Shown: in pieces, positions 1-32,500 of the stretch
Layout: each line of letters opens with the position of its first letter
Position numbering within the stretch: position 1 is the stretch's first letter
Assembly (NCBI GenBank): GCA_020725265.1
Contig: DYFK01000026.1
Span: forward strand, 1-37,012
Direction: 5' to 3'
DNA from: Hydrogenophilus sp.
GTDB lineage: Bacteria; Pseudomonadota; Gammaproteobacteria; Burkholderiales; Thiobacillaceae
Length of the DNA: 37,012 nt
Program-made: the position numbers and the translations under genes
Notes under the pieces: generated by a model
Told to the model about the DNA's origin: nothing
Databases searched by the model: none
The model's input: only the letters and a program-made list of their open reading frames with translations

Positions 1-3000
1 GCTCCAGGTGATCGCCTGGTCAATGCCGTCGGCGGTGTAGATGTAGGCGCCGCCGCCAATGAGGGCGTCGCCGGCGAGGTTGTACAGGTGGCCGCTGTAT
101 TGGCCGCCAATGCGCAGCCAGGCTCGCGTGCCCAGGTCGTGGTGGCCGATGACGATGGCGTTTGTCAGGTCGTCGGGCGCCGGGCCGGGGTGGTAGCCGC
201 CATCGCCGGCGGGGGCGCCGGTGTGCCAGATCGGGGTGCCGCCGCTGAGGTTGGCGATGTGGCCGATGGCGTCGCCCTTGAGGTCGACCTCGCCTCGGTT
301 GACCAGCGTGCCGCTCCAGGTCACCAGGGCGCTGTCGGCGACCCAGGTCTGGCCAACGTCGACGTCGATGCCGGTAACCGCGAGGTCGAGGTGGCCGCGC
401 GCGATCACTTCGCCGTCGCCGGGACGGTGCAGGATGGGCGCCTGGAGTCGGGCGTCGCCGAAACTGCCGACCACGCCTTGGTTGGCGTAGTCGCCCACTT
501 CCAGGTTCAGCGTCTGGTCGGCCAGAACAATGCCGCCGGCATGGTTGTGGAACAGTCCGTCCAGCACGATGTCGATGATCCGCGCCGGGCCGGTCACGCC
601 GTACAGCGTGCCGGCGTTGACGAGGTGCGTGGCGCGGATCGATAGCCGTTCGTCCGTTCGCAGCGTGCCAAGAGCGCCGTTGATGAGGCCGCCGCTGGTC
701 TGGAGGATGAGGTCGCCCTGGCTTTCCATGCGCGCGCCGGGGCCGCCGCTGGTGATGCCGCCGCCGCCGATGAGTGCGTTCAGGCCGCCAACGCCGGCGC
801 GCAGCCGGCCCTGGTTTTGCAGGGCGTCGGCGCGCAGTTCGATGCGCGCGCCAATGAGTTCGCCGAGCAGGTCGGCTTGCGGGCCAAGGTTGGCGAGTGC
901 GCCCGACAGGTCGAGGTCGAGGCGGCCGCCGGCTTGCAGTTTGCCGCCGTGGTTGACCAGGCCGCCGGCCTGGAGGTCAAGATCGCCGCCGGCCTGGATC
1001 AGGCCGGTGTTGGTGGTGGGGGTGGCGGCGCCGTGGTTGGCGTGGGTGTAAAGGTCGTTGACGCTGCGCCGGTTGTCGAGCGTGCCGGCAACGCGGATGC
1101 GCAGGTCGCCCTGGCTTTCCAGTACGCCCTGGTTGTCCAGACTGTCGGCGTCGAGGTCGAGGCGGCCGCCGGCGTGGATGCGGCCGATCTGCTGGGTCCA
1201 GCGGTAGTCGGTGGTGGGGTCGAGGGGGCGCGGTGGGCTGCCGTCCGGGTAGGCGGTCTGGGCGCAGACGTGGGGGTCGGCGACGCAGGTGTCGCCTTCC
1301 CACAGGGTGTTGGCGAGATGGCCGACCTGGATGGCCAGGTCGCCGGCGGCCTGGATGCGTCCGCCGTTGGCGAGTTGGCTGCCCTGGAGGGCGATGTCGC
1401 CGCCCAGCAGGTCGCCGGTGTTGTCGATGCCGCCGCCGTGCACGACAAGTTGGCCGGCGGCGCCAAGCGTGCCGGTGTTGACGAGGCCGCCGGCGATGTC
1501 GATGGCGTCGCCGGTGATGTGGCCGCGATTGTGGGTGGAGCCCAGGTGGAGGCTGGCGCCGTCGAGGTCGCCGTCGTTGTCCAGACTGGCGAGCCGCAGG
1601 CCGAGGCCGGCGATCCGGCCGGTGTTGAGGGTGTGGCCGGCGATGTCGAGGCTGTCGCCGTGGAGCAGGCCGGTGTTGACGAGGCCGGCGCGTAGGTCGA
1701 TGGTTTCGGCGGCGGTCAGTCCGTGGTTGTCGTAGCCGCCGCCCTGGTGGAGAAGCAGTCCGCCGGTCTGGATGCGGCCGTGGTTGACGAGCCCGGTGCT
1801 GGTGAGCGCCATGCCGCTGGCGGCGCCGAACACGCCCTGCTGGCCGAGGGTGATCTGGCCGTCGGCGTGGGCATCCAGCCGGCCGGTGGCGTACAGGCCG
1901 CCGGCGGTGACCAGATTGCTGGTGATGTGGCGGGCCTTGAGCTTCAGGTCGCCTTCGGCTTGCAGGCGACCTTCGTTGACGAGGTCGCCGGCTAGTTCCA
2001 GGTCGAGCCCTTGCGCGAGTTGGAGGTCTCCGAGGTTGAGCAGCCGGCCGCCGGCTTCGAGCCGGGTGGCGCCCAGCAGCCGGCTGTCGCCGTGGAATTC
2101 GAGGTCGGCGGCGGCCCGCGCGGTGAAGGCGCCGTTGGCGGCGATCCGCTGGCGGAAGACGATGCTGCCCTGCGCGCTTTCGGCGCCGAGGTCGCCCGTG
2201 ACGATCAGGTCGCCGAGCAGGTCGAGATCGCCGCCGGCGGTCAGCAGGAGGTCACCGGCGATTTCGACGTCGCCGCCGAGTTCGATGCCGCCTTGCGCGC
2301 TGGCGAGGCTGCCGCGCTGGAAGCGGACGTCGCCGCCGATGCGAAGGCCGTCGTGGCCGCGCAGGTCGACGTCGGCCTGGCTGGCGAGCGCGCCGCCGAT
2401 TTCGACGCGTCCGCCGCCGGCGAGCGTGAGCGGGCCGTTGGCGCGCAGGTCGCCGCCAACGCTTACGCCGTCGCCGGCGAGCGCGTCGAGGCTGCCAAGG
2501 ATGAGCAGGTCGCCGCCGTGGTTCTGGGCGCCGCCGGCGTGCAGCCAGGCTTCGCCCTGGATGTGGCTGTCGCCCTGGGTGGCGAGAACGCCGCCAGTCT
2601 GGACCCGGTGGTCGCCGCCGGTCCACAGGTCGCCGCCGACGCGGGCGTCGCCGCCGATTTGCAGGCTGGCGTCGCCGCCGATGAGCTGGTCGCCGCCGAT
2701 ATGGTGGTGGCCGCCGGTGTGGGCTTGGTAGTCCCCGGCGTAGCGGAGGTCGTCGTCGAGCGTCAGGTTGCCTTGGGCCGACAGGCTGGCGAGCGCGCCG
2801 GGTTCGGTGCCGCCCAGCAGGCTTCGCGCGCGGATGTCGGCTTCGCTTGCCAGCTGGATGCCGCCGGCGGCGGCAAGGTAGCCGGCGATGGCGATGTCGC
2901 CGCGGGCGACGATGGCGAGGGTTTCGGCAATCAGGTTGCCGTTGACGTCGTATTCGCCGCCGGCGTCGGCGATCAGTTCGCCGAGCGCGAGCACGGCGCG

Positions 3001-6000
3001 CAGGCGTGTGTCGCCGCCGCTGTCGGTGCGCAGGTCGCCGCCGGCGCGCAGTTCGCCCGCGCTCAATCCGCCCAGGGCGGCCAGTTCGAGTCGGCCTTGG
3101 GCTTGCGCGTCCCCGTTCAGGGTGAGGTCGGTTTGGGTGCGCAGGTGGAGGTTTCCGGCGCTGGCAACGTCGCCGACCACCCGGAGGTCGCCGGCCGCGG
3201 CGGCGTCGATGTCGCCGTCGGCGATGAGGTCGCCTTGCGCGTCGAGGGCGCCGGCTGCGGTCAGCGTCAGGCGGCCGCCGATCCGGGCGCCGGCCAGCTC
3301 GAGCCGGGCGCCGGTCAGCCGGGCGTCGCCGCCGACGCGCGCTTCGTCGCCAAGCCGGAGGTCGCCGCCTTGGGCATGCAGCGTGGCATGGCCGCCGGCA
3401 TGGAGGCCGTCGCGCAGTTCGATGCGCCAGGCTTCGGCCGTAAGGTCGCCACCCGCCCGGACTTGGCCGCGCAGTTCCAGGAAGCCGCCGGCGATGAGCC
3501 CAAGGTCGCCGTTGGCCGCCAGGTCTCCGGCGATGCCAAGGTCGAGGCCGGCCTGGCTGCGCAGGTCGCGGCCGGCTTGCGCGCCGGCCAGTTGTTGGCG
3601 GCCCGCGCGGCTCAGGCTGACGAGGTCGCGGCCGGCTTGCAGGGTGCCGGCCTGGAGGTCACCCAGGGCGTCGAGCACGAGGTCGCGGCCGGCCAGCAGG
3701 TCGCCGGCTTCAATGACGCCGGCCCGGCTTTCGAGGTGGAGGTCGTCCAGGGCGAGGACGTCGCCGAGATGGAGGTCGCCGAGGGCGGCAATGCGCAGGT
3801 CCCGGTTGCTCTTCAGGATGCCATCCGCGCGCAGGCCGCCGGCGCCGACCAGCAGGTCGAGTCCGCCACCGGTGAGCAGCGCGTCCGCCAGGATCAGGCG
3901 ATCCGCGTCCAGTCGGGCATCGCCGCCAATCCGGGCGGGGCCGCCGATTTCGATCCGGGTCGCGCGCGCTTCCAGGGCGCCCGCTTCCAGGGCGCCGGTC
4001 GACAGGTCGTGCCCGGCGATCAGGCGCATGCCGGTCGATGCGCGGGTCGCGCCGTCGATCCGAAGGTCGCCGCCGGCTTCGAGCGCAAGTTGGTCGCCGG
4101 CCTGGAGATCGCCGCCGTACCGCATGTCGCCGCCGGAGCGGGCGCGTAGGGCCGCGCCGGCCTGGAGGTCGGCGCGCACGTCGAGGTCGCCGGTCGTGTG
4201 CAGCACGATGTCGTCCCGGGCAACCAGGGTGTGCTCGAACGACAGGTCGGCGCCCGCGGCGAGTAGGCCGCCGCCACTGGCGCGCAGAATACCGCCGGCG
4301 CGCAGCCGGCCGTCGGCGATGAGTCGGAGGTCGCTCGCGCTCGCGTCGCCGTCCAACCGGAGGTCGCCGGTGGTTTGCAGGTCGAGCGCGCCGCCGGCGG
4401 TGAGCGCGGCGTCCAGGTGGAGTCCGCCGCTTCCCGCGCGGGCCATGAGGTCGCCCGCGCTGGTGAGCGCTCCGGCAAGGTGCGCGCCCGTCGCCGACAG
4501 GGTGAGACCGCCGGCGTCCATGGTGCCCAGCGCGGACAGGGTGCCGCCCGCGATCAGGGTGGCCTGGCCGGTGACGTGAAGGTCGCCAGCCAGGGTGAGG
4601 TGGCCGCCGGTTCGCAGGTCGAGTTCGCCGCCAATGCGCATGCCGTCGGCGAAATGGCCGTCGTCGGCGCAGGACAGTTGGGCGTTGCCGCGCACTTCGA
4701 GCGCGCTCCAGACGTTGAGCGCGCCATCCAGGGCAAGCCGGAAATCGCCTTCGATGATGTGGCTCCGGCCCTCCACGCCAAGGTCGAGGGCGTGGCCTTC
4801 GATGGCGATGAGGGGGGCTTGGATGCCGCCTTCGACGCGCAGCGTCCGTCCCCCGAGTTCGAGCCGGTTGCCGGCGGTGGCCGTGCCGGTGAGGTTGAGC
4901 CCGATGCCGGCGCGGGCCACGAGGTCGCGGCCGGCAAGGAGGTCGCCGCCCAGGTCGAGCCGGGCGGCGGTAAGGACGAGGTCGTCGCCGGCAACCGTCC
5001 GGCCTCCAAGTTCCAGATGGGTGCCGGCTTCGAGGCGGAGGTCGCGGCCGGCGGCAAGCTCGCCAGCCATGACGAGGCTGCGCGCGGCGGTGGCCGAGAG
5101 GGTCGCGCCTACGTTCAGGGTGCCTTGCTGGACGATGTCTCCGCCTGCCAGACGGGCGTCGCCGGCGGCGTCGGCGCGGCTGCCGGGGCCACCCAGCTTG
5201 AGGCCGCCGACGGCTTGCAGGTCGAGCACGCCTCGTGTGGCAAGGTCGCCGCGCGTTTCCAGGTCGCCGCCGGCGCGCAGTTGGAGGTCGCCGACGGCGG
5301 CAAGCCCGCCGTGGGCTTCGAGATGGCCGGCCGAGCGGCCGGTCAGCCGGCCGCCGGCGTCGATGTCCTGGCGCAGGGTGAGATTGCCGGCGCTGTCGAG
5401 GTGGATGTCGCCGACGGCGGCAAGCCGGCCCAGGTCGACGTCGCCATTGGCGCGCAGGTCGATGCCGCGCTGGTAGGCAACCAGCGGGCCGCCGAGACGG
5501 ACGCCCGGGCCGTGGTCCGTGGCGACGATCTTGATCTGGCCGGCGGTCATGGCGCCAACCAGACTGGCGTCGATGGCGAGCGCGGGCATGGCGCCGGCGT
5601 CAGGGGCGGTCGCGTCGGCGGGTTCGGTCGCGTGGCCGCCTTCGGTCGTTTCCCGTACCAGTCCGGTGCCGGCGGCCAGTTGAATGCTGGACAGGGCCTG
5701 GTTGAGGTAGTGCGCGCGCAGCGGTGCGTCCAGCAACAGACTGGCGCCGATCAGGTCGAGTCGGCCAACGGTGCCTTCCAGTCCGGCGCCCTCGATGACG
5801 ATCCGGCCGCCACGCACGTCGTAGCCCAGCCCTTCGGCTTGGTCGAAGCCGGATTGCGCGCCCTGACGGTCGAAATAGACCGGGCTGCCGGTGACCAGCC
5901 CGAGTCGCGGGGTGTTGACCACGCCGCAACCCGCGCAGACCAGTCCGTTGGGGTTGGCGATGATGACTTCGGCCGGGGCGCCGAACACTTCGATCGTTCC

Positions 6001-6477
6001 CGACAGCCGCCCCGGTGCCCCGGCGACGGTGACTTCGTTGACGATGATCCGCGCGGGGCGCCCCGCCATAAGGTTGGGATTGCCGCCAACCTGTCCGCCC
6101 AGAAGACTGCTTCCCCCCGTCAGGCTGTTGTTGAGAATGAGCCCAAGGCCGTCCACGTCGAACCGTTGATATTGGTTGAGCGACAGCCCTCCAGCATTGG
6201 GCGCGGTGATGTCGATCCGGGGCACCCCCAACGCGCTCTCGCCCAGCGTCGGTCGAAACACGATCGCGGCGTTCGGGTCGGCAATCACCCCAGCATGCCC
6301 AACTGCCATGCCCACACGAAATCCAACGTCGCCATACGGTTGGATCGCACTCCATCCAAACAGCATCAACACCACGCTCGACAAGCGGCGAAAATGGACC
6401 GAGTGCCCCTTGTCCGCCCGCCCTTTTCCAAAATCATCGCTCGACAAGGCTTTGTTTGTTTTCCTCAACGCACCCAT
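1..6477 (-). CDS. Large filamentous-haemagglutinin-type two-partner secretion exoprotein (TpsA), 3' end outside window
   Basis: This reading frame stays open from its ATG to the window edge (2159 codons) without a frameshift; the C-terminus is not visible. The start at 6477 is preferred over an in-frame ATG at 6504 because GGGGAG lies 7 bases upstream. Residues 1-30 are basic and polar, and 31-46 form a hydrophobic segment, consistent with an extended signal peptide. Residues about 64-300 are a canonical TPS domain: VIADPNAAI, FDVDGLGLILNNS, NPNL at 133-136, NPNG at 175-178, and the CAGCG Cys pair at 181-184. Residues about 340-1480 are a long run of AGGDLxL-like repeats of roughly 20 residues, as expected for a right-handed beta-helix. 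After about 1480 the repeats change to the classic haemagglutinin form (LVNTG, LDNQG). It is expected to be exported by Sec, then through the TpsB encoded at 6950-8629, to become a surface adhesin or a CdiA-like toxin carrier. The missing C-terminus would decide which. Confidence 0.93.
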   Translation of the reverse strand, partial: MGALRKTNKALSSDDFGKGRADKGHSVHFRRLSSVVLMLFGWSAIQPYGDVGFRVGMAVGHAGVIADPNAAIVFRPTLGESALGVPRIDITAPNAGGLSLNQYQRFDVDGLGLILNNSLTGGSSLLGGQVGGNPNLMAGRPARIIVNEVTVAGAPGRLSGTIEVFGAPAEVIIANPNGLVCAGCGVVNTPRLGLVTGSPVYFDRQGAQSGFDQAEGLGYDVRGGRIVIEGAGLEGTVGRLDLIGASLLLDAPLRAHYLNQALSSIQLAAGTGLVRETTEGGHATEPADATAPDAGAMPALAIDASLVGAMTAGQIKIVATDHGPGVRLGGPLVAYQRGIDLRANGDVDLGRLAAVGDIHLDSAGNLTLRQDIDAGGRLTGRSAGHLEAHGGLAAVGDLQLRAGGDLETRGDLATRGVLDLQAVGGLKLGGPGSRADAAGDARLAGGDIVQQGTLNVGATLSATAARSLVMAGELAAGRDLRLEAGTHLELGGRTVAGDDLVLTAARLDLGGDLLAGRDLVARAGIGLNLTGTATAGNRLELGGRTLRVEGGIQAPLIAIEGHALDLGVEGRSHIIEGDFRLALDGALNVWSALEVRGNAQLSCADDGHFADGMRIGGELDLRTGGHLTLAGDLHVTGQATLIAGGTLSALGTMDAGGLTLSATGAHLAGALTSAGDLMARAGSGGLHLDAALTAGGALDLQTTGDLRLDGDASASDLRLIADGRLRAGGILRASGGGLLAAGADLSFEHTLVARDDIVLHTTGDLDVRADLQAGAALRARSGGDMRYGGDLQAGDQLALEAGGDLRIDGATRASTGMRLIAGHDLSTGALEAGALEARATRIEIGGPARIGGDARLDADRLILADALLTGGGLDLLVGAGGLRADGILKSNRDLRIAALGDLHLGDVLALDDLHLESRAGVIEAGDLLAGRDLVLDALGDLQAGTLQAGRDLVSLSRAGRQQLAGAQAGRDLRSQAGLDLGIAGDLAANGDLGLIAGGFLELRGQVRAGGDLTAEAWRIELRDGLHAGGHATLHAQGGDLRLGDEARVGGDARLTGARLELAGARIGGRLTLTAAGALDAQGDLIADGDIDAAAAGDLRVVGDVASAGNLHLRTQTDLTLNGDAQAQGRLELAALGGLSAGELRAGGDLRTDSGGDTRLRAVLALGELIADAGGEYDVNGNLIAETLAIVARGDIAIAGYLAAAGGIQLASEADIRARSLLGGTEPGALASLSAQGNLTLDDDLRYAGDYQAHTGGHHHIGGDQLIGGDASLQIGGDARVGGDLWTGGDHRVQTGGVLATQGDSHIQGEAWLHAGGAQNHGGDLLILGSLDALAGDGVSVGGDLRANGPLTLAGGGRVEIGGALASQADVDLRGHDGLRIGGDVRFQRGSLASAQGGIELGGDVEIAGDLLLTAGGDLDLLGDLIVTGDLGAESAQGSIVFRQRIAANGAFTARAAADLEFHGDSRLLGATRLEAGGRLLNLGDLQLAQGLDLELAGDLVNEGRLQAEGDLKLKARHITSNLVTAGGLYATGRLDAHADGQITLGQQGVFGAASGMALTSTGLVNHGRIQTGGLLLHQGGGYDNHGLTAAETIDLRAGLVNTGLLHGDSLDIAGHTLNTGRIAGLGLRLASLDNDGDLDGASLHLGSTHNRGHITGDAIDIAGGLVNTGTLGAAGQLVVHGGGIDNTGDLLGGDIALQGSQLANGGRIQAAGDLAIQVGHLANTLWEGDTCVADPHVCAQTAYPDGSPPRPLDPTTDYRWTQQIGRIHAGGRLDLDADSLDNQGVLESQGDLRIRVAGTLDNRRSVNDLYTHANHGAATPTTNTGLIQAGGDLDLQAGGLVNHGGKLQAGGRLDLDLSGALANLGPQADLLGELIGARIELRADALQNQGRLRAGVGGLNALIGGGGITSGGPGARMESQGDLILQTSGGLINGALGTLRTDERLSIRATHLVNAGTLYGVTGPARIIDIVLDGLFHNHAGGIVLADQTLNLEVGDYANQGVVGSFGDARLQAPILHRPGDGEVIARGHLDLAVTGIDVDVGQTWVADSALVTWSGTLVNRGEVDLKGDAIGHIANLSGGTPIWHTGAPAGDGGYHPGPAPDDLTNAIVIGHHDLGTRAWLRIGGQYSGHLYNLAGDALIGGGAYIYTADGIDQAITWS
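2611..2715 (-). repeat. GGD-dense six-residue repeat inside the large exoprotein
   Basis: On the plus strand the 9-mer GTCGCCGCC starts at 2611, 2629, 2647, 2671 and 2689, with a one-base variant at 2707. Spacings are 18, 18, 24, 18 and 18 bases. On the coding strand each copy encodes Gly-Gly-Asp, so GGD recurs every six (once eight) residues. This is much denser than the roughly 20-residue coil spacing elsewhere in the protein. A His-rich stretch (TGGHHIGG) lies at its N-terminal side. It is a local sub-repeat, not a separate element. Confidence 0.8.
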
Positions 6478-6660
6478 GCGTCGTCTCCCCGGTTCAACTG
6501 TCATGTTTGGTCTGCGATATCGAAGTCGATTTCACGGCCCGCTTCCAGTAAGCAGACCGGCCGGCAACAGCCAGGCCAGCGCTGGCGGTCGGATGGAACA
6601 TCCCGGGCGGCGTGGGTCGATGCCAAGCCCGTGCTTTTCCGCGCACAGTCACGGTTACCG
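6478..6660 (-). other. Intergenic leader of the large exoprotein, with a 12-bp palindrome
   Basis: This 183-base gap separates the 86-aa membrane protein from the large exoprotein. It holds a perfect palindrome, GCCAGCGCTGGC, at 6575-6586 and the strong ribosome binding site GGGGAG just before 6477. It is much longer than the gaps between the other genes of the locus (7 and 28 bases), so it could hold its own promoter or a processing site. I could not identify a convincing -35/-10 pair. Confidence 0.4.
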
Positions 6661-6921
6661 TTACCGGGCGGACACCGGAAAAAAGCACGCGACCCATTCG
6701 GCCTGGGTCAGACAGCCGCGCAGGCTATCCCAATGCGGCTGCGCGATCTGGCCCACAATCAAGCCAACCGCCGACAAAGTCAGCGCGATCGCCAGCACCC
6801 GTTCCCGGGGCGGGCCGGCTCGCGTGTACCAGCGGCTCAACCACTCCAGTGCAAGCCAGGCCAGATATGCCGCCGGCAGCCCCAGCGCCAACACGAAAGC
6901 GAGCGGTATCGTGGTGCTCAT
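6661..6921 (-). CDS. Small two-helix membrane protein between TpsB and the large TpsA
   Basis: This 86-aa protein is not recognised. Residues about 5-27 and 42-60 are hydrophobic and look like two membrane helices. They are joined by a short loop with the charged run RAGPPRER. The C-terminal tail (about residues 61-86) contains two Cys and several Trp. The ATG at 6921 is supported by AGGGAGA 7 bases upstream and lies only 28 bases after the TpsB stop, so the gene is probably co-transcribed. By location it may assist export or stability of an exoprotein, but this is inference. The ordered reading frame, good ribosome binding site and membrane-protein composition argue that it is real. Confidence 0.75.
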   Translation of the reverse strand: MSTTIPLAFVLALGLPAAYLAWLALEWLSRWYTRAGPPRERVLAIALTLSAVGLIVGQIAQPHWDSLRGCLTQAEWVACFFPVSAR

Positions 6922-6949
6922 TGGATCGTCTCCCTGTTCTGTTGATCAT

Positions 6950-8629
6950 TCAGAATTGATAGGTAATGTTGAAGTTGATCCTCGGCCCACTTCCGGTGGA
7001 CAGGCCAGGCGGACGCGCGAGCGGCCAACCGGCCAGGATCTCCGCGCTGCCTCGACGCGCGCCGACACGCGCGCCCAGTCCGGCGCCGAGCAAGCGCGCC
7101 CAGTCATCGTCGGCAAGCGTTTTCACCATGCCGGCATCGATGAACAGATAGGGCTCGGCGCGCAGTCGTCCCCCCAGTAGAGGGGGCAGATCCCCACGTG
7201 CGATTTCATTGCGCAGTACGAAACCGCGGTCTCCCCCCTGAGCCGACTCCGGGAAACCACGCACGCTGGAGACGCCACCAGCAAAAATCTGTTCGGAGGA
7301 GTACAGCGGGTGGCGACTCCATTGGCCACCCATGCGGCTCCGCCAGATGTAGCCATCCAGGACCGGCAGGCTCGCGCTGGCGGCCGCTTCGTATTTGATG
7401 AATCTGGAGCGCGCGGCTCCGGCCGGCATGTCGGACGGATCGCGATCGGCGCCGAACCAGCTCAGCCCGCGTGTGATGCCGGCATCAAGGGTCCATTGCC
7501 CGATTGCCGTGCCAATGCGCGCGCGCATGAGCCGATTGAGCCCGATTCGTGCGGTGGTCTGGGTTTGCGGCGTCAGCCTGACGTTGTTGACGTGGCGTTC
7601 CGACTGTCGTCTCGATACGGTGAGATCCATCGCCGTTTTGGTACGTTGATCTCGATGCACGATCCGATGGAGTGTCAGCGCATAGCTGTTCGAAGTGCCG
7701 TGGACAAGCGCGGTGTGTCCGATGAGATTCTGGTATTCCGACCAGGAAGACATGAATGAAAGCGTGTGGTACCCAAGCGGCAGCGAAAATGCACCGTACA
7801 CGGCATTGGTCTCCATGCTGCTGGTGAGACCGACAGACAGCGACTCCATGAGGCCAAGCATGTCACCGGTTTCCACATCGGTACGCAGCCGGAATCGACC
7901 GGTGCCGGGAGCGCCCTGGTTGTCGCCGGTCAGTTGGTAACGCGCGGAGTCGCTCTGTACGTTGATCAGTTCGACGAGGGAGCCTCCCGGCCGGGCACCG
8001 GGTTTGATCTGAATCTGGACGTTGTTGCGGCGCAGGCGGTTGAGCTGATCGACAGCCTGCTCGATATCTGGAAGACGCAGGATGTCACCTCCCCGGATCG
8101 GTAGCGCCAGGCGAACACCGAAGCCTGCCTCTCCGGATGACACATCACGACCGTTGTAGCGTATCGATTCGATTCGGCCAGGCACGATCGCGATGACGAG
8201 TTCGCCATCGGACAGATTCCGGCTGGCGACGTATGCCCGCGAAGTGATGTAGCCCGCCGCGACCAGGGCTCGGTTCAAACGGTCAAGCAGCAGGTTGATC
8301 CGGTTGACTCCAAGCGGCTTGCCCTCGAATGGGGCAACGATTTGCCGAAAAATTCGCTCATCCAGCAAAACCTCATCCTGTCTGGAGATGGCGCGGATTT
8401 GGAAGACCGGCCCCGGCTCGGGCAGGAGCTCGGGGGTATCGCCGAAAGTATCCGCGCCTGCGTCGGGGATTTCGATTTCCGCTTCACCGCGTTCGAGCAC
8501 GCGTTCGCGCGCTTTTTCGAGTTGCTCTCGATGCAGGCGCTCTCCGGGATCCCTGACTGGTGGTGGCGTTTGCGCTTGTGCCAGGCCAGTCATGCCGATT
8601 GCGAGCAGTACGTATCCAAGTCGTCGCAT
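6950..8629 (-). CDS. ShlB/FhaC/HecB-family two-partner secretion transporter (TpsB)
   Basis: This 559-aa outer-membrane transporter of the Omp85 superfamily moves TpsA exoproteins from periplasm to surface. Residues 1-19 are a clear signal peptide ending AQA. Residues about 75-151 form the first POTRA domain (FQIRAIS to IVPGRIESI) and about 152-225 the second. The rest is a 16-strand-type barrel with the family VRGF motif at 456-459, a FIDAG motif near 491-495, and a C-terminal strand ending in Phe (ITYQF). A TTG codon at 8656 would add nine residues, but it lies inside the upstream gene. The ATG at 8629 gives the perfect signal peptide and has AGGCGG just upstream. It starts 7 bases after the stop of the compact exoprotein gene, so the two are almost certainly one transcript. 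Confidence 0.95.
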   Translation of the reverse strand: MRRLGYVLLAIGMTGLAQAQTPPPVRDPGERLHREQLEKARERVLERGEAEIEIPDAGADTFGDTPELLPEPGPVFQIRAISRQDEVLLDERIFRQIVAPFEGKPLGVNRINLLLDRLNRALVAAGYITSRAYVASRNLSDGELVIAIVPGRIESIRYNGRDVSSGEAGFGVRLALPIRGGDILRLPDIEQAVDQLNRLRRNNVQIQIKPGARPGGSLVELINVQSDSARYQLTGDNQGAPGTGRFRLRTDVETGDMLGLMESLSVGLTSSMETNAVYGAFSLPLGYHTLSFMSSWSEYQNLIGHTALVHGTSNSYALTLHRIVHRDQRTKTAMDLTVSRRQSERHVNNVRLTPQTQTTARIGLNRLMRARIGTAIGQWTLDAGITRGLSWFGADRDPSDMPAGAARSRFIKYEAAASASLPVLDGYIWRSRMGGQWSRHPLYSSEQIFAGGVSSVRGFPESAQGGDRGFVLRNEIARGDLPPLLGGRLRAEPYLFIDAGMVKTLADDDWARLLGAGLGARVGARRGSAEILAGWPLARPPGLSTGSGPRINFNITYQF

Positions 8630-8636
8630 ACGCCGC

Positions 8637-10637
8637 CTACCAGAAGAAAAAGCCAAGGTGATCCTCGATGACCACCGGATCGGCGCTTGGCGGCTCGATG
8701 ACCCGGATCAGGCCTTCGACCCCCTGGGCGGCAGCGAAATATCCACGTTCCTGTATGGCCTCGCCATGCAGGACCAGCCTGCCGAATTGGGCGGTGAATC
8801 CTCCCCCCTGGTCGGCGGCCTGTATGCGCGCCCAATTGTGGCCGAACAAGGATTTGAGCCCTTGATCCCGCCACAGCGCGGTGTGAACGGGTTTCGCGCG
8901 GGCAATGATTTCAGGGCTTTCCAGGATGACGTCGCCCAGGGCTAGCACGCCTCCACCCTCATTGACGATCCGTTCGCCGGCCCGAATATGGATGTTTCCA
9001 CCGGCACTGATCTGGCCGCCAACCAGGGTTTCGCTGGATCTTGCGCGCTTGTCGCAGATGAACAGCAGACATGATTGACGGTAGCTGAAGGACCCGACCG
9101 AATGTGCCCGGGTTTCCATTTCGTGGTCGATGTCGATGAAGAGATCTCCGTCATTGGAGAATATGTGACCACCGAGGTTTTTGATGTCGGCCGCCTTGAT
9201 CTCCATGTCCTTGTCGGCGACCCAGTACGCCAACTGGGAGGGGTCCGTGAGTTTTCCCATATCCACGCTGTAGCCGGATTTATGCCTTTCCAGCAATCCG
9301 AACAGAACGGATTCGGAGCGGGACCAATCGATGCGGCCCGGTCCGGCTTCGTGCAGGGTTTCGTTGATCGCGTTGCCTTCGGTCTCCATGCGCAGGGCAC
9401 CGTTGGAAAGAATGCGTGCACCGACGGTGACGATGCCCTGCCGCGCGAATACACCGATGTCGTCGGCGCCGCCGAATACGATGGCACCGGCTCCACCCGG
9501 CTCGGATCGATGTTCGAGCGTACCCTCGGTCACGAGCGTTACTGCATGAGGCGTGGCTTCTTCGCCCATATCCCGCATGCCTCCGGAGAGGATGCCGCCA
9601 ACGTTGCGTATGCCGGTTTGGGCATCGATAAGCAGGCTACCGGATGCGGAGACCGTGGACTGCCTGTCCTCCTCGTTGACTTGATCAAAGGTTCCGGTCA
9701 CGACGCGAACCTTGCCCGCCGCGCGCACGCTTCCTCCACGTTGTTCGACCCGGCCGGAGGAGGTAAGCAGAAAATCTCCGGAAGAAGCCAGCAGGTCTCC
9801 GGCATTGCGCACCCCGGCGCCGGCATCGGTCACCCATATCTCGATGCGGCCGGAGGTGATGCCCGCACTGGTGGAGACATCGACTGCGAGCGCGGTCGCG
9901 GCAACCCCATCCTCCGCTGCGGAGTGATATGCCCAAGGCGTGAGATTGTCGGTCGGCGAGGCGGCGGTATCGAAACTCGTTTCCGAACCTCCCGCCACGA
10001 CCCTGACAAGAGCGCTTGAAGAGCTGTAAGCGTTGGTGACAGGTCCTTCGATGCCAACCCGCCTGGCGATCAATTCGAGGCGGATGAGATCCGCGTTCAA
10101 ACCTTCTTGTCCGATCACGATTTCGCCTTCGCGGGTGGACAGGTCGACGTATCGCTGGACAAGACCGGGCGCAAGTTCGACGTCGCGCAATCCGACTTTG
10201 CCGGTCCCAAGCGCGACGCTTCCGAAATTGATGAAGCCTCCGCCGTTGATCCGGATTCCGTTCTGATTGGCAAGTATCAGATTGGCGCGGGGACCGTCGA
10301 TGGAGAGCGGGCCGGCGATGTGGGATGGCGAGGTGGAAAAGACCTCCGCCACGATGGTACGAGCTTGCACACCCTCATTGAGGAAGCGCGCACCGGCTAT
10401 GCCGACGTCGAACGTGCTGAAGGCATTGTAGGAAACATCGTTGATGACGCTCGCCGGCACGATGTCGAAGCGTCCGGAATCCACGCGCTCGACGATGGTG
10501 TTCGTGGTTCCCCGCGCGACGATGTTGCCTTCCGAGGCAAGTACGCCCTGGGTCACACAAGCAATCAGCGTTGCTGCCGCCGTTGCGGCGGACACGCGTT
10601 CCACATTGAATAACGATGACATTCCGGTCAATCGCAT
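8637..10637 (-). CDS. Compact two-partner secretion exoprotein (TpsA-like), first gene of the locus
   Basis: This 666-aa exoprotein begins with a signal peptide (residues about 1-35, ending GVLAS). The TPS domain follows: NAFSTFDVG near 71-79, FLNEGV near 85-90, and NQNGI at 124-128 where most family members have NPNGI, then GGGFINFGS. It lacks the Cys pair found in the large exoprotein. The remainder has haemagglutinin-like beta-helix repeats (VRNAGDLLASSGDFLL, IKNLGGHIFSNDGDLF). A short Cys pair, CLLFIC, lies near residue 525, and the protein ends in the aromatic tail HLGFFFW. It is short for a TpsA; whole FHA-type proteins are usually several times larger. The ATG at 10637 is supported by GAGGG 8 bases upstream. 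It probably uses the transporter encoded directly downstream. Confidence 0.92.
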   Translation of the reverse strand: MRLTGMSSLFNVERVSAATAAATLIACVTQGVLASEGNIVARGTTNTIVERVDSGRFDIVPASVINDVSYNAFSTFDVGIAGARFLNEGVQARTIVAEVFSTSPSHIAGPLSIDGPRANLILANQNGIRINGGGFINFGSVALGTGKVGLRDVELAPGLVQRYVDLSTREGEIVIGQEGLNADLIRLELIARRVGIEGPVTNAYSSSSALVRVVAGGSETSFDTAASPTDNLTPWAYHSAAEDGVAATALAVDVSTSAGITSGRIEIWVTDAGAGVRNAGDLLASSGDFLLTSSGRVEQRGGSVRAAGKVRVVTGTFDQVNEEDRQSTVSASGSLLIDAQTGIRNVGGILSGGMRDMGEEATPHAVTLVTEGTLEHRSEPGGAGAIVFGGADDIGVFARQGIVTVGARILSNGALRMETEGNAINETLHEAGPGRIDWSRSESVLFGLLERHKSGYSVDMGKLTDPSQLAYWVADKDMEIKAADIKNLGGHIFSNDGDLFIDIDHEMETRAHSVGSFSYRQSCLLFICDKRARSSETLVGGQISAGGNIHIRAGERIVNEGGGVLALGDVILESPEIIARAKPVHTALWRDQGLKSLFGHNWARIQAADQGGGFTAQFGRLVLHGEAIQERGYFAAAQGVEGLIRVIEPPSADPVVIEDHLGFFFW

Positions 10638-11111: not shown

Positions 11112-14100
11112 ATGAATGCCCGCCTGAAACCCGTGGCCGCCCTGCTCTGCCTGGCCGGTCTGTTGCCCCTCACCCTCAACGCCCTGGCCGCCGGGGATGT
11201 CGTCATCAGCCAGATTTACGGCGGTGGCGGCAACAGCGGCGCGACCCTGAAACACGATTTCATCGAACTGTTCAACCGGAGCGGCGCGCCGGTGACGGTG
11301 AACGGCTGGACGGTGCAGTACGCATCGACCACCGGCTCCAGCTGGCAGAAGACGGCGCTGGCCGGCACCCTGCAACCGGGCCGTTACTATCTGGTGCGCC
11401 AGGCGCAGGGTAGCGGCGGCAGCGTCGATCTGCCGACTCCGGACGCGGCCGGCACCATCGCCATGTCGGCGAGCGCCGGCAAGGTGGCCCTGGTCAGCAA
11501 CGACACGACCTTGACCGGTAGCGCGCCGACCGGCGCCCACATCGTCGATTTCGTCGGCTTCGGCCCGGGCACCAATGCCTCGGAGACGGCGCCGACCTCG
11601 CCCAATCTGACCAACACCACGGCCGCTTTGCGCGCCGGTGGCGGTTGCGTCGATACCGATCACAACCTCGACGATTTCGCCAATGCCGCGCCGGCGCCGC
11701 GCAACAGCGCCAACCCGGCCAACGTCTGCGGCACGCCGGCGAACGCGCCGGTGGTGGCGGTGTGTCCGGCCAATCTGGCGCTGTCGCAGGGTCAGACCGG
11801 TGCGCTGGAACTGTCGGCGAGCGATGCCGACGGCATCGTCGACAGCGCGCTCCTGGTTTCCGCGCCGGTGGCCGGCATCGGCCTGACCGGCTTCACGCCG
11901 GCCGCCGGCGTCGGTGCCAGCGCCGAAGCGACGCTCGAAGTCGCCGGCTCGGTCGGTGCTGGTCAGTACGCGGTCGAGGTGAAGTTCGCCAACGCCGAGG
12001 GCCAGGAAGCCAGTTGCGCGATCCAGGTCAGCGTGGTCGGTCTCACCCGCATCTTCAACATCCAGGGTAGCGGCGTGGTCAGCCCGATGGCTGGCGCCAA
12101 GGTGACCACCGAAGGCGTGGTCACGCTGGTCACCAACAACGGTTACTTCATGCAGGACGCGGAAGGCGACGGCGATGACGACACTTCCGACGGCATCTTC
12201 GTCTACACCGGCTCGACGCCGGCCGTCGCCGCCGGCGACCGGGTCCGGGTCCAGGCCACGGTCACCGAGTACGCGGTCGGCACCGGTGCCGCCGCGCAGG
12301 CCAATCCGGTCACGGAATTGACCGGCGCGATCACCCAGGTGCTCGATTCGGGATACACGGTCGAACCGGTCACGATCGTCTTCCCGGAGGCGGTCGAAGG
12401 CGACCTGGAGCGCCATGAGGGCATGCTGGTGCGCATCGAGGTGCCGCTGACCGTGTCGCAGAACTACTTCCAGGGCCGCTACGGCCAGGTCACGCTGTCG
12501 GCCGATGGCCGTCTGGAGAAGCCGAGCAACCTGTTCCCGGCCGCCAGCGCGGAAGCCGCGGCGATGGCCGACGACAACGCCCGCCGCCGCATCCTGCTGG
12601 ATGACGGCAGCAGCCTGCAGAACCCCAATCCCATCCCCTATCTGGGCGAAGACGGTACCCTGCGCGCCGGCGACCTGCTGCCGGACGGCGTGGTCGGCGT
12701 CATCGACTACGGCCTGGCCACCAGCGACAGCGCCGGTCTGAGCGATTACAGGATCCACCCGGTGGTCGCGCCCGTGATCGAGCGCGCCAACCCGCGCGCG
12801 GCCACGCCGGAGCTGGTGCCGGGCAATGTCCGCGTGGCCAGCTTCAACGTGCTCAACTATTTCACCACCATCGACCAGACCGGTGCCCAGTGCTTCCCGA
12901 GCATGACCCGGAGCGACTGCCGGGGCGCGGACAGCGTCGTCGAGTTCGAGCGCCAGAAGGTCAAGATCGTCAACGCGCTGAAAGCCATCGATGCCGACGT
13001 GGTCGGCCTGATGGAGATCGAGAACAACGGCAACCTGGCGGTCCAGGATCTCACCGACGCGCTCAACGCGGCGATCGGCACCACCGCCTACGCGCCAGTC
13101 GCGCTGCCGGCCGGCGGCACCGGCGGCGACGCCATCCGGGTGGCGCTGATCCACAAACCGGCGGTGGCCGGCGCGTTCGGCGGCGCGGTCAGCGATACCG
13201 ATCCCATCCACAACCGCCCGCCGCTGGCGCAGACCTTCGCGCTCACCAACGGCGAACGCTTCACCGTGGTGGTCAACCACTTCAAGTCGAAGGGAAGCTG
13301 CCCGGCCAGCGGCCCGGATGCCGACCAGGGCGACGGCCAGGGCTGCTGGAACGCGCTGCGCGTCGAACAGGCCGAACGCCTGGCCGCGTTCGCGACCGGT
13401 CTGGGCGGCGGCAACGCGCTGTTGATCGGCGACCTCAATGCCTACGGCAAGGAAGACCCGATCCTGAAACTCGCCGAACTCGGCTATCAGGATCAGATCG
13501 CCCGCTTCGGCGACTTCAATTACTCCTACGTGTTCGACGGCGAAGCCGGCTATCTCGACCACGCGCTGGCCGGTCCCGATCTGGCGACGCGCGTCGCCGG
13601 GGTCGGCCACTGGCACATCAACGCCGACGAGCCGTCGGTGATCGACTACAACACCGAGTTCAAGCCGCATGACGTCTATGGCCCGCACCCGTTCCGCTCG
13701 TCCGATCACGATCCGGTCATCGTCGGCCTCGGCCTGTACCGGGACATCGTCGGCGGCGCCGGCCGCGACACGCTGGTGGGCACAACGGGCGACGACATCC
13801 TGATCGGCGGCCGTGGCGCCGATACGCTGACCGGCAACGGCGGCCGCGACCGCTTCGTCTACACCAGCGTGCTCGACGGCACCGATACGATCACCGATTT
13901 CACCTCCGGCGAGGATCGCATCGTGCTGACCGGGCTGCTCGCCAGTCTGGGCATCGCCAACGTCAATCCGCTCGCCAGCGGCCACGTGGTCTGCCAGAAC
14001 GCCGGCTCCAACGCGGTCGTCCACGTCGATCCCGATGCCGCCGGCCCGCTCGCGCGCCGCGCGCTGGTGCAAGTTCGCGGCCAGCAGTGCGCCAACCTGG

Positions 14101-14126
14101 CCCAACCCGGCAATTTCGAGTTCTGA
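11112..14126 (+). CDS. ExeM/NucH-family secreted endonuclease with C-terminal RTX repeats
   Basis: This 1004-aa protein begins with a signal peptide (1-27, LNALAA). A lamin-tail-like domain follows at about 28-150 (VVISQIYGGGGNSG, DFIELFNRSG). The middle is the usual ExeM N-terminal region, with IQGSG, YFMQDAEGDGDDDTSDGIFVY and an OB-like section. The DNase I-type catalytic domain spans about 573-870: SFNVLNYF, LMEIENNG near 631-638 (metal-binding Glu), VVNHFKSKG, GDLNAYGKEDP near 773, and SSDHDP near 863. Residues about 880-920 carry RTX calcium-binding repeats (GGAGRDTLVG, GDDILIGG, GADTLTGN). They are followed by a type I secretion C-terminal target-like domain (DRFVY to GEDRIVLTG). It is expected to degrade extracellular DNA or RNA for nutrient recovery or biofilm turnover. 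GGAG lies 8 bases before the ATG. Confidence 0.93.
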   Translation: MNARLKPVAALLCLAGLLPLTLNALAAGDVVISQIYGGGGNSGATLKHDFIELFNRSGAPVTVNGWTVQYASTTGSSWQKTALAGTLQPGRYYLVRQAQGSGGSVDLPTPDAAGTIAMSASAGKVALVSNDTTLTGSAPTGAHIVDFVGFGPGTNASETAPTSPNLTNTTAALRAGGGCVDTDHNLDDFANAAPAPRNSANPANVCGTPANAPVVAVCPANLALSQGQTGALELSASDADGIVDSALLVSAPVAGIGLTGFTPAAGVGASAEATLEVAGSVGAGQYAVEVKFANAEGQEASCAIQVSVVGLTRIFNIQGSGVVSPMAGAKVTTEGVVTLVTNNGYFMQDAEGDGDDDTSDGIFVYTGSTPAVAAGDRVRVQATVTEYAVGTGAAAQANPVTELTGAITQVLDSGYTVEPVTIVFPEAVEGDLERHEGMLVRIEVPLTVSQNYFQGRYGQVTLSADGRLEKPSNLFPAASAEAAAMADDNARRRILLDDGSSLQNPNPIPYLGEDGTLRAGDLLPDGVVGVIDYGLATSDSAGLSDYRIHPVVAPVIERANPRAATPELVPGNVRVASFNVLNYFTTIDQTGAQCFPSMTRSDCRGADSVVEFERQKVKIVNALKAIDADVVGLMEIENNGNLAVQDLTDALNAAIGTTAYAPVALPAGGTGGDAIRVALIHKPAVAGAFGGAVSDTDPIHNRPPLAQTFALTNGERFTVVVNHFKSKGSCPASGPDADQGDGQGCWNALRVEQAERLAAFATGLGGGNALLIGDLNAYGKEDPILKLAELGYQDQIARFGDFNYSYVFDGEAGYLDHALAGPDLATRVAGVGHWHINADEPSVIDYNTEFKPHDVYGPHPFRSSDHDPVIVGLGLYRDIVGGAGRDTLVGTTGDDILIGGRGADTLTGNGGRDRFVYTSVLDGTDTITDFTSGEDRIVLTGLLASLGIANVNPLASGHVVCQNAGSNAVVHVDPDAAGPLARRALVQVRGQQCANLAQPGNFEF

Positions 14127-27834: not shown

Positions 27835-27910
27835 ACGCGAAATCGACTCCTTGCCTCCGGCGCTCGCGTTCCGCGAGCGCCATTCACATTCAACAACCCC
27901 GGGAATCCAG

Positions 27911-28738
27911 ATGAAATCCAGCCTCGCCAGTCTCCTGACCGCTTCCGCGCTCGTCCTGCCCCTGTCCATGCCCACGGCGCACGCCGCCGAAATCGACGGC
28001 AACACGCCGATCGCGCGCGTCAACGGCGTCGCCATTCCGGTCATTCACGCAGCCTTCATCAAGCAAAGCCGGGTCAACCGAGGCGCCAACCCGGAGACGC
28101 TGACCGACGAATCGATCCGCGATGCCCTGATTTCGATGGAAGTCATGGTCCAGGAAGCCCTGCGCAAGAATCTGGACAAGGAGGCGAGCGTGGCCGCCGC
28201 GCTCGATCTCCAGCGCAAGGAATTGCTCAGCCAGGCGGCGGTCGAGGATTACGCCCGCGCCAACCCGGTCGACGAGGCACTGGTGCGCGCGGAATACGAC
28301 AAGGCCAAGGCCGCCGCCGGCGACAACGAATACCGGGTGCGCCATATTCTGGTCGACAACGAGAAGGAAGCCCGGACCATCATCCAGACGCTGGCGCGCA
28401 AGAACAAACCGCCCAAGTTCGAGGAACTCGCCAAGAAGCATTCCAAGGACAGCTCCGCCCAGGAAGGCGGCGATCTGGGCTGGGTGCTGCCGGCCAATGT
28501 CGTCCCGGAATTCGCCAACGCGATGGTCAAACTGAAGAAAGCCGATTTCACCCGGATACCGGTCAAATCGGAGTTCGGCTGGCACGTCATCAAACTGGAA
28601 GACAGCCGCAAGCTCGAATTCCCCAGCTATGAAGAACTGCGCGGCCGCATCGCCGGCCAGATCCGGCAGCAGATGCTGCGCAGGTACATCAGCGAAGTCC
28701 GCTCCACCGCGCGCATCGAGCTGATCGGCAAGCCCTGA
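27911..28738 (+). CDS. Periplasmic parvulin-type peptidyl-prolyl isomerase
   Basis: This 275-aa protein has a signal peptide at 1-25 (ending TAHAA). An N-terminal SurA/PrsA-like chaperone helix region covers about 30-135. The rotamase domain covers about 138-235: YRVRHILVDNEKEA, FEELAKKHSKDSSA, GGDLGWV, FGWHVIKLED. It probably helps fold exported proteins. The ATG at 27911 gives the signal peptide and has GGGAA upstream; an upstream frame start at 27851 does not. It is the last gene of the yciB operon, an order common in betaproteobacteria. Confidence 0.93.
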   Translation: MKSSLASLLTASALVLPLSMPTAHAAEIDGNTPIARVNGVAIPVIHAAFIKQSRVNRGANPETLTDESIRDALISMEVMVQEALRKNLDKEASVAAALDLQRKELLSQAAVEDYARANPVDEALVRAEYDKAKAAAGDNEYRVRHILVDNEKEARTIIQTLARKNKPPKFEELAKKHSKDSSAQEGGDLGWVLPANVVPEFANAMVKLKKADFTRIPVKSEFGWHVIKLEDSRKLEFPSYEELRGRIAGQIRQQMLRRYISEVRSTARIELIGKP

Positions 28739-29522: not shown

Positions 29523-32500
29523 TCAATTCGGCAGCCAGGCTTTCAGCCAAGCATCGAGATTATCTTCCAACATCCAGTTGGACTGAATGTACTCGCGCAA
29601 TGCGTCGCCACGCCGCGCCAGCGCGTCCGGATCGGCGACATGCTCGCGAATGGCGTCGACCCAGTTCTTGAACTTGTTGGGCACGCGCGTGACCGGGTAG
29701 GCGCCCTTGTAGGGCGTGATGTCGGTGCAAATCACCGGGTAACCGAGCACGCCATATTCGAGCAGACGCAGATGGCTCTTGGCATGGTTGAACGGCACGT
29801 CCTCCAGCGGCGCGACGGCGAGATCCAGGTTCAGGCTGGCGAGTTTGGCGGGATAGTCGTCAAGTTTCACCGGTGGGTGGAATTCCTTGATCAACGGCTT
29901 GAGCGACTCCGGACACATGCCGAAGAACACCCAGTCGACCTCATCCAGCGTCGCCTTGACCACGTCGATGATGACGTCCAGATCGCCATGGTGGGTGACG
30001 CTGCCGGCCCAGCCGACACGCAACCTTTCACCCTGACGGCGTGAAGGCGTGAGCTCGCCCCAGACCGCGCGCTCGATGAAGTTGGGCACGGCGACCACTT
30101 CGCCGGTATAGCCCCGGTATTCCTCGGCGAGATATTCGGTGGACACCACCAGCCGGTCGCACATGCCGACCCCCTTGCGGAACTGCTTGTGCAATTCCTT
30201 GTTGGCGACGAACTGGGACTTGCGCGGGTTCTTGATCGGCACGTTGGTGATCAGGTCATCGATCTCGAATACCCGGAAAGCCTTGCTGTGGCGGGTATAG
30301 CGTTCGAACAGGGCAAGCTGCTCCGGCGTCACCTGGCGTTGGACGACGATGGCATCCGGCGCCATGCGCAACACCTCGGGCACACTGATGTAGCTGCCGG
30401 TCTCCCAGCCCTGGACGCGGCCGGCGGCGATCAGCGCGCGCATCGGCGAGATGATGCGGTACTCGCCGCAGCCCATGCGGTCGGCCGGATGCGCCAGGAT
30501 GCGCGGCCGCGGCCGCCATTCCGGATCCCAGGTCAGGGCGGGCGCGATCTCGATCAGCCCGGAGCGATCGTGCAGGCACAGGTTGCGGTTGAAATGGGGG
30601 TCGCTGGCGATCTGGCTCGGCCATTTGTCGTACATCGCCCGTGCCTCCGCCTGAAAGCGCTCCAGCCGCTCCTCGCGCTTGCGCTGTTCGACATTGCCGG
30701 TCTGGCTTACCGAGCCCTCGTGCAACAAGGTGGCGAACGGCGTCCACACCACCAGCAAGCCCTTCTCGCGGACCTTGAGACAGAGGTCGACATCGTTGTA
30801 GGAAACCCTGAACAGGGTTTCGTCGAGCCCGCCAACCTCGGCATAGAGGGAACGGGGAATCATCAGGCAGGCCGCGGTCACCGCCGAGAAATCCTGGACC
30901 AGTTGCGCGCGGCCGAAATAGCCGGGTGCCTCGCTGTCCTGTTCGATGAACAGATGATCGGCCGGCTTGCCGCCCAGGCCGAGAATGACACCGGCATGCT
31001 GGAGCAGGCCGTTCGGATAGAGCAACCGGGCGCCAACGATGCCGACTTCGGGACGCTGCGCGTGCGCGACCATCTCGTCCAGCCATTGTTCGTGCAGCAC
31101 GGCGGTATCGTTGTTGAGCAGCAGGAGGTAATCCCCCCTCGCCTCGCCCGCCGCCATGTTGTTCATCGCCGAGAAGTTGAACGGATGCGGGTACGGCAGC
31201 ACGCGCACTTTCGGGTGCGCCGCCATCCGGTCGAGATACGCGCGCGCCTCCGGCTCGGTGGTGCCGTTGTCGACCAGCAGCAGCTCGTACTCGCTGTACT
31301 CGGTCTTGCCCAGGAAACTGTCGACACAGCGCTTGATCAGGTCGGGCCGATCCTTGGTCGGCACGATCACCGAAACCAAGGGTCGCGCGCCATGCTTGTA
31401 GAACACATGGAAAGTGCCCGGCAACAGGCCGTCGCCAATCACCGCCGCCTGGCCGCACCGGTCCAGATGCGCCTGAAGCGCCTCCTTGCGCGCCGCCAGC
31501 ACGTCCTCGGTGGCGCGCGTGCAATGGCCGCCCTCGACATGGCGGTGATAGAGCACATCGGCAATGTGGCCGATGCCGCCGGCGCCGACCCGTTCATAGG
31601 CCCGCATCAGCAAATCCCAGTATTCCACGCCCTCCATCTCGGGGCGGTAGCCCCCCAGTTCGACGAACAGCGCGCGTCGGGTCAGCATCAGACCACCGAA
31701 CGAATACGGCGCGCTACGACACAGGTCGATGTTGAAATCAGGCTTGAAATACGGGTTGCCGCGCTTGCCCTCGGCATCCAGGCTGTCCTCGTCGCTGAAA
31801 CAGACCGACCATTCCGGATGCCGCCCGATCTTGTCGGCGAAGGCGAACAGCGCATGCATGGCGAGACCGTCGCCGGATTCGAGCATGCCCACCCAGTCAG
31901 CCCGTGTTTCCGCGAAAGCCTGGTTGAGCAACGCCAGCGGCGATGCCTGGCCGATCTCCAGCCAATCGATGTTGTCGACTTCGTTGATCACTTCCGGCAT
32001 CGGCGATTCGGCGACGATGGTCAGATGCCAGTTTTGATAGAACTGCCGCCCGAGCGCCTGGATCAGATCACCCAGACCCCATTCCATCTCCGTCCAGACG
32101 ATGACTCCGATGTGGAAGCGCGGACGCCCGGGCAACCGTTCCAGCCGTTCGGTGATCCACTCCAGATCGCGCGACACCAGCGCATGCCCGGCCTGCCAGA
32201 CCTCGTAGAGTTGCTCCGGAGACGGACGGTTCGCGGATGGAGACTCGGCGGCGGGCATGGGCGGCGCGGCCGTATCGATCCGTTCACGCGGCGGCGCGGC
32301 GGCGAGCAGCTCGCCATACACCCGGGCATATTCGGCCGCGCGTACCTCCACCGTGTGCCGGGCCTGAACCGTCGCCTGCGCGGCGCGCGCGATGGCCAGC
32401 CGGCGATCGGGATGATCGATCAGCTCGCACAGGGCGTCGTACCAGGCCCGTTCGGTGTTCGGAACCTTGATGCCGGTGATACCGTGCTCGACTTCCGCGT

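Follow-up and report, generated by a model that had tools for sequence, protein, structure and literature searches.

Genes for two-partner secretion (TPS) usually provide one TpsB transporter for one cognate TpsA exoprotein, FhaC being named as the exception in the passage cited from PMC3297439. A locus from Hydrogenophilus sp. (assembly GCA_020725265.1, contig DYFK01000026.1) raises the question of whether a single TpsB can serve two unlike TpsAs within a fixed cassette. The window, the whole stretch of 37,012 nucleotides analysed here, is the entire contig C23 of a 36-contig genome with a stated completeness of 96.65%. On its minus strand lie genes for a compact exoprotein (smallA), a TpsB, an 86-aa open reading frame (ORF) and the N-terminal part of a giant exoprotein (bigA). 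We consider it likely that smallA, TpsB and bigA form a TPS cassette resembling those of contact-dependent growth inhibition (CDI), with a single TpsB as the exporter of two TpsAs unlike in structure, and that smallA and bigA probably cooperate on the cell surface.

One TpsB and two unlike exoproteins in the window

All four ORFs were confirmed from the sequence, as were the minus-strand order, the gaps of 7, 28 and 183 bases and the motifs NQNGI, NPNL/NPNG and CAGC described in an earlier note on this DNA. smallA (8637-10637, 666 aa), characterized using Pfam, AlphaFold2 (AF2), Foldseek and alignment, has a likely signal peptide, a TPS domain at approximately residues 44-298, the motif NQNGI without NPNL, and a cysteine pair, Cys523/Cys528. 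TpsB (6950-8656) consists of a ShlB barrel (Pfam ShlB, 228.7 bits) and two POTRA domains (POTRA_2 and POTRA_3); its nearest solved structure is CdiB (6wim, E 8.8e-53), with FhaC next. It is 568 aa long from a TTG and 559 aa from the ATG at 8629, 7 bases past the smallA stop, which is likely the true start. The 86-aa ORF (6661-6921), with two hydrophobic segments, is separated from TpsB by 28 bases.

The remaining gene, bigA (1-6504), encodes an exoprotein of the CdiA/filamentous haemagglutinin (FHA) type with NPNL, NPNG and the CAGC pair, and is broken off at base 1 because the window is the whole of its contig. The part present measures 2,168 aa from the ATG at 6504, or 2,159 aa from that at 6477, the likely start, which leaves the 183-base gap to the 86-aa ORF. 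The Pfam TPS domain scores 102.8 bits in smallA and 97.8 bits in bigA (cut-off 33.5). Type Vb secretion is thus represented in the window by a ShlB/POTRA TpsB and by TPS-domain TpsAs beside its gene.

Genome-wide, we found two ShlB matches (C23 and C24) and three TPS domains, two on C23 and one adjoining the C24 TpsB. The C24 locus (L036, 5734-13529) is a separate TPS pair comprising a TpsB and a 2,031-aa TpsA that has NPNG without NPNL and is of a different TPS type.

The cassette recurs, mostly in Burkholderiales

A contig search with ten smallA proteins identified 168 relatives; the counts below refer to the best 80, with flanks of up to 10 kb. L072 and G219/L057 are one Delftia tsuruhatensis locus, while L131 and L132 lie at separate contig ends in the same organism (G186) and could belong to a single locus. 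An earlier contig scan with TpsB as the query gave no matches. The cassette is recurrent, mostly in Burkholderiales, with TpsB located within 200 nt downstream of smallA at 76/80 loci. The four loci outside this limit are L128, where smallA is in two frames and TpsB follows the second, the contig ends L137 and L148, and L139. In the 80 loci with both genes scored (the 76 together with the window, L037, L057 and L060), the nearest in-frame TpsB start overlaps the smallA stop or lies within 20 nt of it in 71.

A bigA-type frame was found downstream in 44 of the 80 loci, upstream in 23, on both sides in none and was unseen in 13; whole-genome searches placed bigA upstream, 11-22 kb off, in three of these 13 (L098, L107 and L146). 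The earlier note had named, as a finding that would refute its reading, homologues in which the two exoproteins never co-occur; they were found together in 70/80, with bigA on one side; the other ten have one flank shorter than 3 kb (contig ends). Since the order smallA-TpsB-bigA recurs in tens of loci, the pairing exceeds chance; of the four-gene order in the earlier note, these three genes recur elsewhere, and the 86-aa ORF, as far as searched, does not recur with them. Some bigA frames are partial or broken (two pieces in L104; short in L115 and L139), two loci (L076 and L135) have bigA on the other strand, and a second same-strand TpsB occurs in one (L144). In the genomes of L081 (G854:C40) and L105 (G866:C15), another TPS gene of the size of bigA is found 13-14 kb further downstream on the same strand, with no TpsB match between. 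Two bigA genes per cassette can therefore occur, and in these genomes three TpsAs possibly depend on one TpsB. In G435 (L061, L193), smallA, TpsB and a parvulin-type peptidyl-prolyl isomerase (PPIase) gene stand without an adjoining bigA; the bigA-type gene of this genome begins close to the end of a different contig, and only two TpsBs were found.

Such a PPIase frame lies downstream in 65/80 loci. We rejected it as a constant part, as it is missing in the other 15, namely L071-L076, L102, L135, L136, L140 and five loci truncated within 1.3 kb. The window has a separate parvulin-type PPIase gene (27851-28738, plus strand), which could substitute for the one missing from its cassette. The place of the 86-aa ORF is occupied in relatives by the PPIase or, in the nearest kin of the window locus, by a gap of approximately 70-80 bases or overlapping frames. 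The suggestion in the earlier note that this membrane protein is a dedicated secretion aid was not borne out. The ORF has no Pfam, NCBIfam or PADLOC match; besides itself, a search of 101 genomes gave two weak matches, with no TPS genes in their flanks of about 1.5 kb. It appears confined to the window locus, as far as searched, and found no support as a conserved or dedicated aid.

We also searched genome sets sampled by taxonomy. Kin over most of the length of smallA were found among 149 relatives in G105 only, and 22 same-genus genomes gave no smallA kin and weak TPS-domain matches in three. Of 399 genomes of the order, nine pass 1e-20 with smallA: the window genome, G219, G186, G105, G467 and G435 do so with short frames resembling smallA, whereas in G138, G261 and G231 the matching proteins are larger exoproteins. 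Among 369 genomes of the class, none besides the window genome passes this threshold.

A plasmid search returned 79 records, 14 with at least 80% smallA coverage, and in all six records examined smallA is followed by TpsB. Those of Thioclava and Tritonibacter lack the PPIase, which the other four (B. ambifaria, P. phymatum, P. largidicola and B. stagnalis) have. Of these four, the first two have a large TpsA upstream and the last two have it downstream; in Thioclava it lies on the other strand, and the Tritonibacter stretch shows only a short piece of it at the edge.

Nine genomes have a single detected TpsB

We searched 34 locus-bearing genomes (31 picked from the 80 loci, plus G467, G105 and G186) for ShlB and TPS domains. 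In nine, the count is precisely one ShlB-family TpsB and two TPS domains, all of them at the locus and on the same contig; several of these genomes are draft assemblies, in which a TpsB in an unassembled part could have been missed. They are G467 (89% complete) and the genomes of L071, L072, L073, L074, L075, L092, L094 and L135. The other 25 have at least two TpsB matches; the window genome, as noted above, has two. The nine single-TpsB genomes are the strongest evidence for one pore serving both exoproteins. The recurrence of the cassette across many relatives, in some of which this was the sole pore of its kind detected, makes export of both proteins through one pore probable, and the proposal of the earlier note that one TpsB serves two unlike TpsAs remains the best reading.

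We then placed the transporter among its relatives using a TpsB clade model, built with several of the same proteins. At E ≤ 1e-60, 42 of the 399 order genomes have a TpsB; eight score at least 553 bits, and a ninth clade member, G186, is cut by contig ends. smallA adjoins the clade TpsB in six of the nine (G000, G105, G219, G435, G467 and G186). The earlier note called the arrangement unusual, a description to be toned down in view of these six genomes and of multi-substrate TpsBs, which are already published (PMC10449530 and PMC3699455, in the passages cited). Eight of nine lower-scoring TpsB loci examined have TpsB beside a bigA-type gene with no smallA or PPIase, and the ninth, G244, has neither exoprotein type. 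In a quick TpsB tree, the three clade loci without smallA form one group (SH-aLRT 99), and the window falls into a group with Delftia, Acidovorax, Paracidovorax and Comamonas (SH-aLRT 99). The upstream and downstream positions of bigA correspond to two changes among the rows so labelled.

smallA is conserved and predicted to form a beta-helix

Across ten close pairs, the ratio of nonsynonymous to synonymous substitution (dN/dS) of smallA is 0.05-0.39, and at most 0.11 in nine, by which measure smallA is under purifying selection. AF2, run with 52 sequences, predicts a continuous beta-helix (mean pLDDT 91.6, pTM 0.87). The best Foldseek match of this model is the FHA secretion domain (1rwr), with HxuA, EtpA and HMW1 at weaker E-values; the FHA and HpmA secretion domains are its only solved relatives by sequence. 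Although FHA and HpmA are thus its nearest solved relatives, smallA lacks the NPNL that marks their type, and the motif is absent from the smallA frames of all 80 loci. By contrast, NPNL is present in the window bigA and in 47/55 bigA N-termini from the 80 loci. All 82 aligned smallA rows have NPNG or NQNG, the latter in the window and seven others, which are its nearest kin except L076.

The earlier note described smallA as lacking a cysteine pair, which is correct for the TPS motif; a pair does lie further on in the protein. This pair, Cys523/Cys528, is kept in 51/52 aligned rows, the remaining row having a gap, and C-x(2-5)-C is found in the second half of smallA in 77/78. In the predicted structure, these cysteines sit at a hairpin (strands 512-524 and 527-534) that lies inside the helix, some 140 residues short of the C-terminus, and not in a terminal tail. 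The cysteine pair in the TPS motif of bigA is not general (16/69).

The probable far end of bigA carries a toxin-like domain

The only PF13332 matches in the genome are in the final 1.5 kb of contig C9, inside an open-ended 974-aa frame that runs off this contig (L035:15218-18142, minus strand). The frame, whose link to bigA is indirect, ends in Tox-REase-7 (34.8 bits, cut-off 25), and directly behind it is a 295-aa ORF, a candidate immunity gene with no family match in Pfam, NCBIfam or PADLOC. In the bigA homologue of G219 (L057, 3,447 aa), most of the window part matches residues 384-1954 and the C9 part 2392-3276, in the same order. smallA and the C24 exoprotein close with their own stops, leaving bigA as the only one of the three TPS proteins without a C-terminus. 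The C9 frame likely continues bigA, judging from these matches. The earlier note had pointed out that a second TpsB next to the C-terminal end of bigA would refute a shared transporter. The ShlB matches of this genome are confined to C23 and C24. A TpsB at the far end of bigA was rejected, none having turned up on C9, which probably holds that end.

We scanned the C-termini of 10 of the 18 bigA frames listed. Five matched pretoxin or toxin families in Pfam (DUF637 in all, one under the cut-off; PT-VENN in three; Gln_amidase and Tox-REase-5 in one each) and five matched nothing. The C-termini vary from locus to locus, and an Imm8 gene follows one bigA. Between bigA and smallA of Paraburkholderia phymatum (L066, 6814-13690), an Imm8 gene, a DUF637 protein and several small ORFs resemble a store of spare toxin-immunity modules.

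Shared export and its alternatives

On the basis of these observations, we propose that bigA forms a filament of the CdiA type whose toxin-like tip varies; the tip here is probably a domain of restriction-endonuclease fold, with a candidate immunity gene behind it. smallA, predicted to be a compact beta-helix and encoded by a gene in tight linkage with tpsB, would pass through the same TpsB pore. The two would then act together at the cell surface, where smallA may be an adhesin, an anchor or a display partner.

Several observations weigh against this proposal. At one of the 80 loci, L139, smallA has no TpsB seen downstream. Three of the nine clade genomes (G138, G231 and G360) lack smallA; each has TpsB-PPIase-bigA, one TPS domain genome-wide and one TpsB found, and therefore the clade TpsB occurs with bigA alone. 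As smallA is without the NPNL of bigA, it is not obvious that the same POTRA domains would recognise both. Across 65 loci, the TpsB-smallA and TpsB-bigA distance correlations are 0.965 each, with a smallA-bigA partial correlation of about zero; across 53 loci, the value for TpsB-PPIase (0.948) equals or exceeds that for TpsB-smallA (0.944), and the lowest correlation with POTRA is that of the TPS part of smallA (0.808). Because the PPIase control is equally high, these correlations reflect shared history only, and specific smallA-TpsB co-evolution was rejected. Finally, the parts of bigA are on separate contigs, whose ends have no 15-mer in common over their final 400 bases.

A stronger form of the proposal is that smallA is the third core component of a distinct CDI-like class, exported first via the CdiB-type pore, held there by a disulfide hairpin and required to display or trigger the toxin filament. 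We regard this extension as tentative and, on balance, doubtful.

Appreciable minority weight goes to the possibility that TpsB exports both proteins and smallA is an independent adhesin that shares pore and operon with no part in toxin delivery. The resemblance of smallA to the FHA/HpmA secretion domains, and then to HxuA and EtpA, fits such a role. bigA seems to work without smallA in the three smallA-free relatives, and it is on the opposite strand at L076 and L135; the second bigA-sized gene in the L081 and L105 genomes suggests that the bigA partner is not strictly single. However, a bigA-type gene is present at every one of the 70 loci not cut short, and in G435, the only case where smallA-TpsB stands with no bigA beside it, a bigA-type gene was found on a different contig.

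It is unlikely that smallA is a regulator or plug of TpsB, binding the POTRA domains and stalled in the pore by its disulfide hairpin until bigA is delivered. The near-invariant cysteine pair and the tight coupling to tpsB are compatible with this, as are the disulfide loops that anchor HMW1 and HxuA in their TpsBs (PMC5422565 and PMC8151025, passages cited). In smallA, however, the pair is not in a terminal tail, and an intact beta-helix of about 600 residues exceeds what a plug needs.

We consider it very improbable that bigA leaves the cell through a different transporter, for example the TpsB on C24, with the window TpsB serving smallA only. A second TpsB does exist in the window genome, but it has its own adjacent TpsA of a different TPS type, and export of bigA by this separate pair was rejected. 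Moreover, no second TpsB was found in the nine single-TpsB genomes, and in G138, G231 and G360 the clade TpsB is found with bigA as the sole TPS-domain protein. A chance or decaying juxtaposition, with smallA a truncated former exoprotein, has next to no probability: the split frame in L128, the missing TpsB in L139 and the recent arrival suggested by base composition might favour it, but the order kept over 80 loci contradicts it, and purifying selection and the complete predicted fold led us to reject smallA as degraded.

Composition and neighbours of the locus

The GC content at third codon positions (GC3) is approximately 0.69-0.70 in smallA and TpsB (6950-10637), 0.87 in bigA (0.79 in its first 420 codons) and 0.82-0.92 in several genes further right. 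The low values suggest that smallA and TpsB are foreign and arrived recently in this genome. Adjoining the TPS locus is a gene for an ExeM/NucH-family extracellular nuclease with lamin-tail and RTX repeats (11112-14126, plus strand), and further right lies one for a 1,626-aa protein with several glycosyltransferase domains (29523-34403, minus strand).

Comparison with known systems

A description of the smallA-TpsB-bigA cassette was not found in the open literature, to which the search was largely confined, most subscription papers lying outside it. The cassette is a real, conserved variant of CDI-like TPS systems and may hold an overlooked component of such systems in Burkholderiales. Natural strains in which only one TpsB was found, among them the culture-collection strains Delftia acidovorans NBRC 14950 and Comamonas koreensis KCTC 12005, are suited to the study of substrate recognition by POTRA domains.

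The locus resembles CdiB/CdiA of the E. coli type in that the nearest solved relative of TpsB is CdiB and the large TpsA has a TPS domain, FHA repeats, a probable toxin-like C-terminus and a candidate immunity ORF downstream. It differs in the second, compact TpsA upstream of tpsB and in the PPIase gene of most relatives, and toxin delivery by it is putative. Burkholderia bcpAIOB is likewise from Burkholderiales, with an extra small gene beside tpsB and a polymorphic toxin tip (PMC3415462, passages cited). Its order, as given there, is A-I-O-B, with the predicted lipoprotein BcpO before bcpB (PMC3415462). Compared by description only, the order here is instead compact TpsA-TpsB(-PPIase), with bigA on either side and, in the window, the 86-aa ORF after tpsB.

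In Moraxella, the transporter gene is reportedly flanked by those of its exoproteins, in the order MhaB1/MhaC/MhaB2. MhaC secretes both TpsAs (PMC3699455, in the part cited); these are both FHA-like adhesins, whereas the two exoproteins here differ in size, TPS type and C-terminus. Several TpsA substrates per TpsB are also known for Bordetella FhaC, which serves FhaB, FhaL and FhaS, and for Neisseria TpsB2, which serves five (PMC10449530). The cited passages of that source describe relaxed specificity and orphan TpsAs, unlike a fixed compact TpsA-tpsB cassette.

Bordetella Par27 is a parvulin-type PPIase that binds FHA, although a par27 mutant still secreted FHA (PMC8151025, passages cited). 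Most relatives of the window locus similarly have a parvulin-type gene after tpsB, but in the window and in L071-L076 no PPIase gene separates TpsB from bigA. Two TPS-domain families and a disulfide anchor have been described (PMC5422565 and PMC8151025, in part). The HMW1/HxuA anchor is a disulfide loop in a periplasmic C-terminal tail, in contrast to the internal position of the smallA pair. Multi-substrate TpsBs are thus not new in themselves; what appears to set this locus apart, as judged from sequence comparison, is the fixed cassette of a compact TpsA, tpsB and a bigA-type TpsA.

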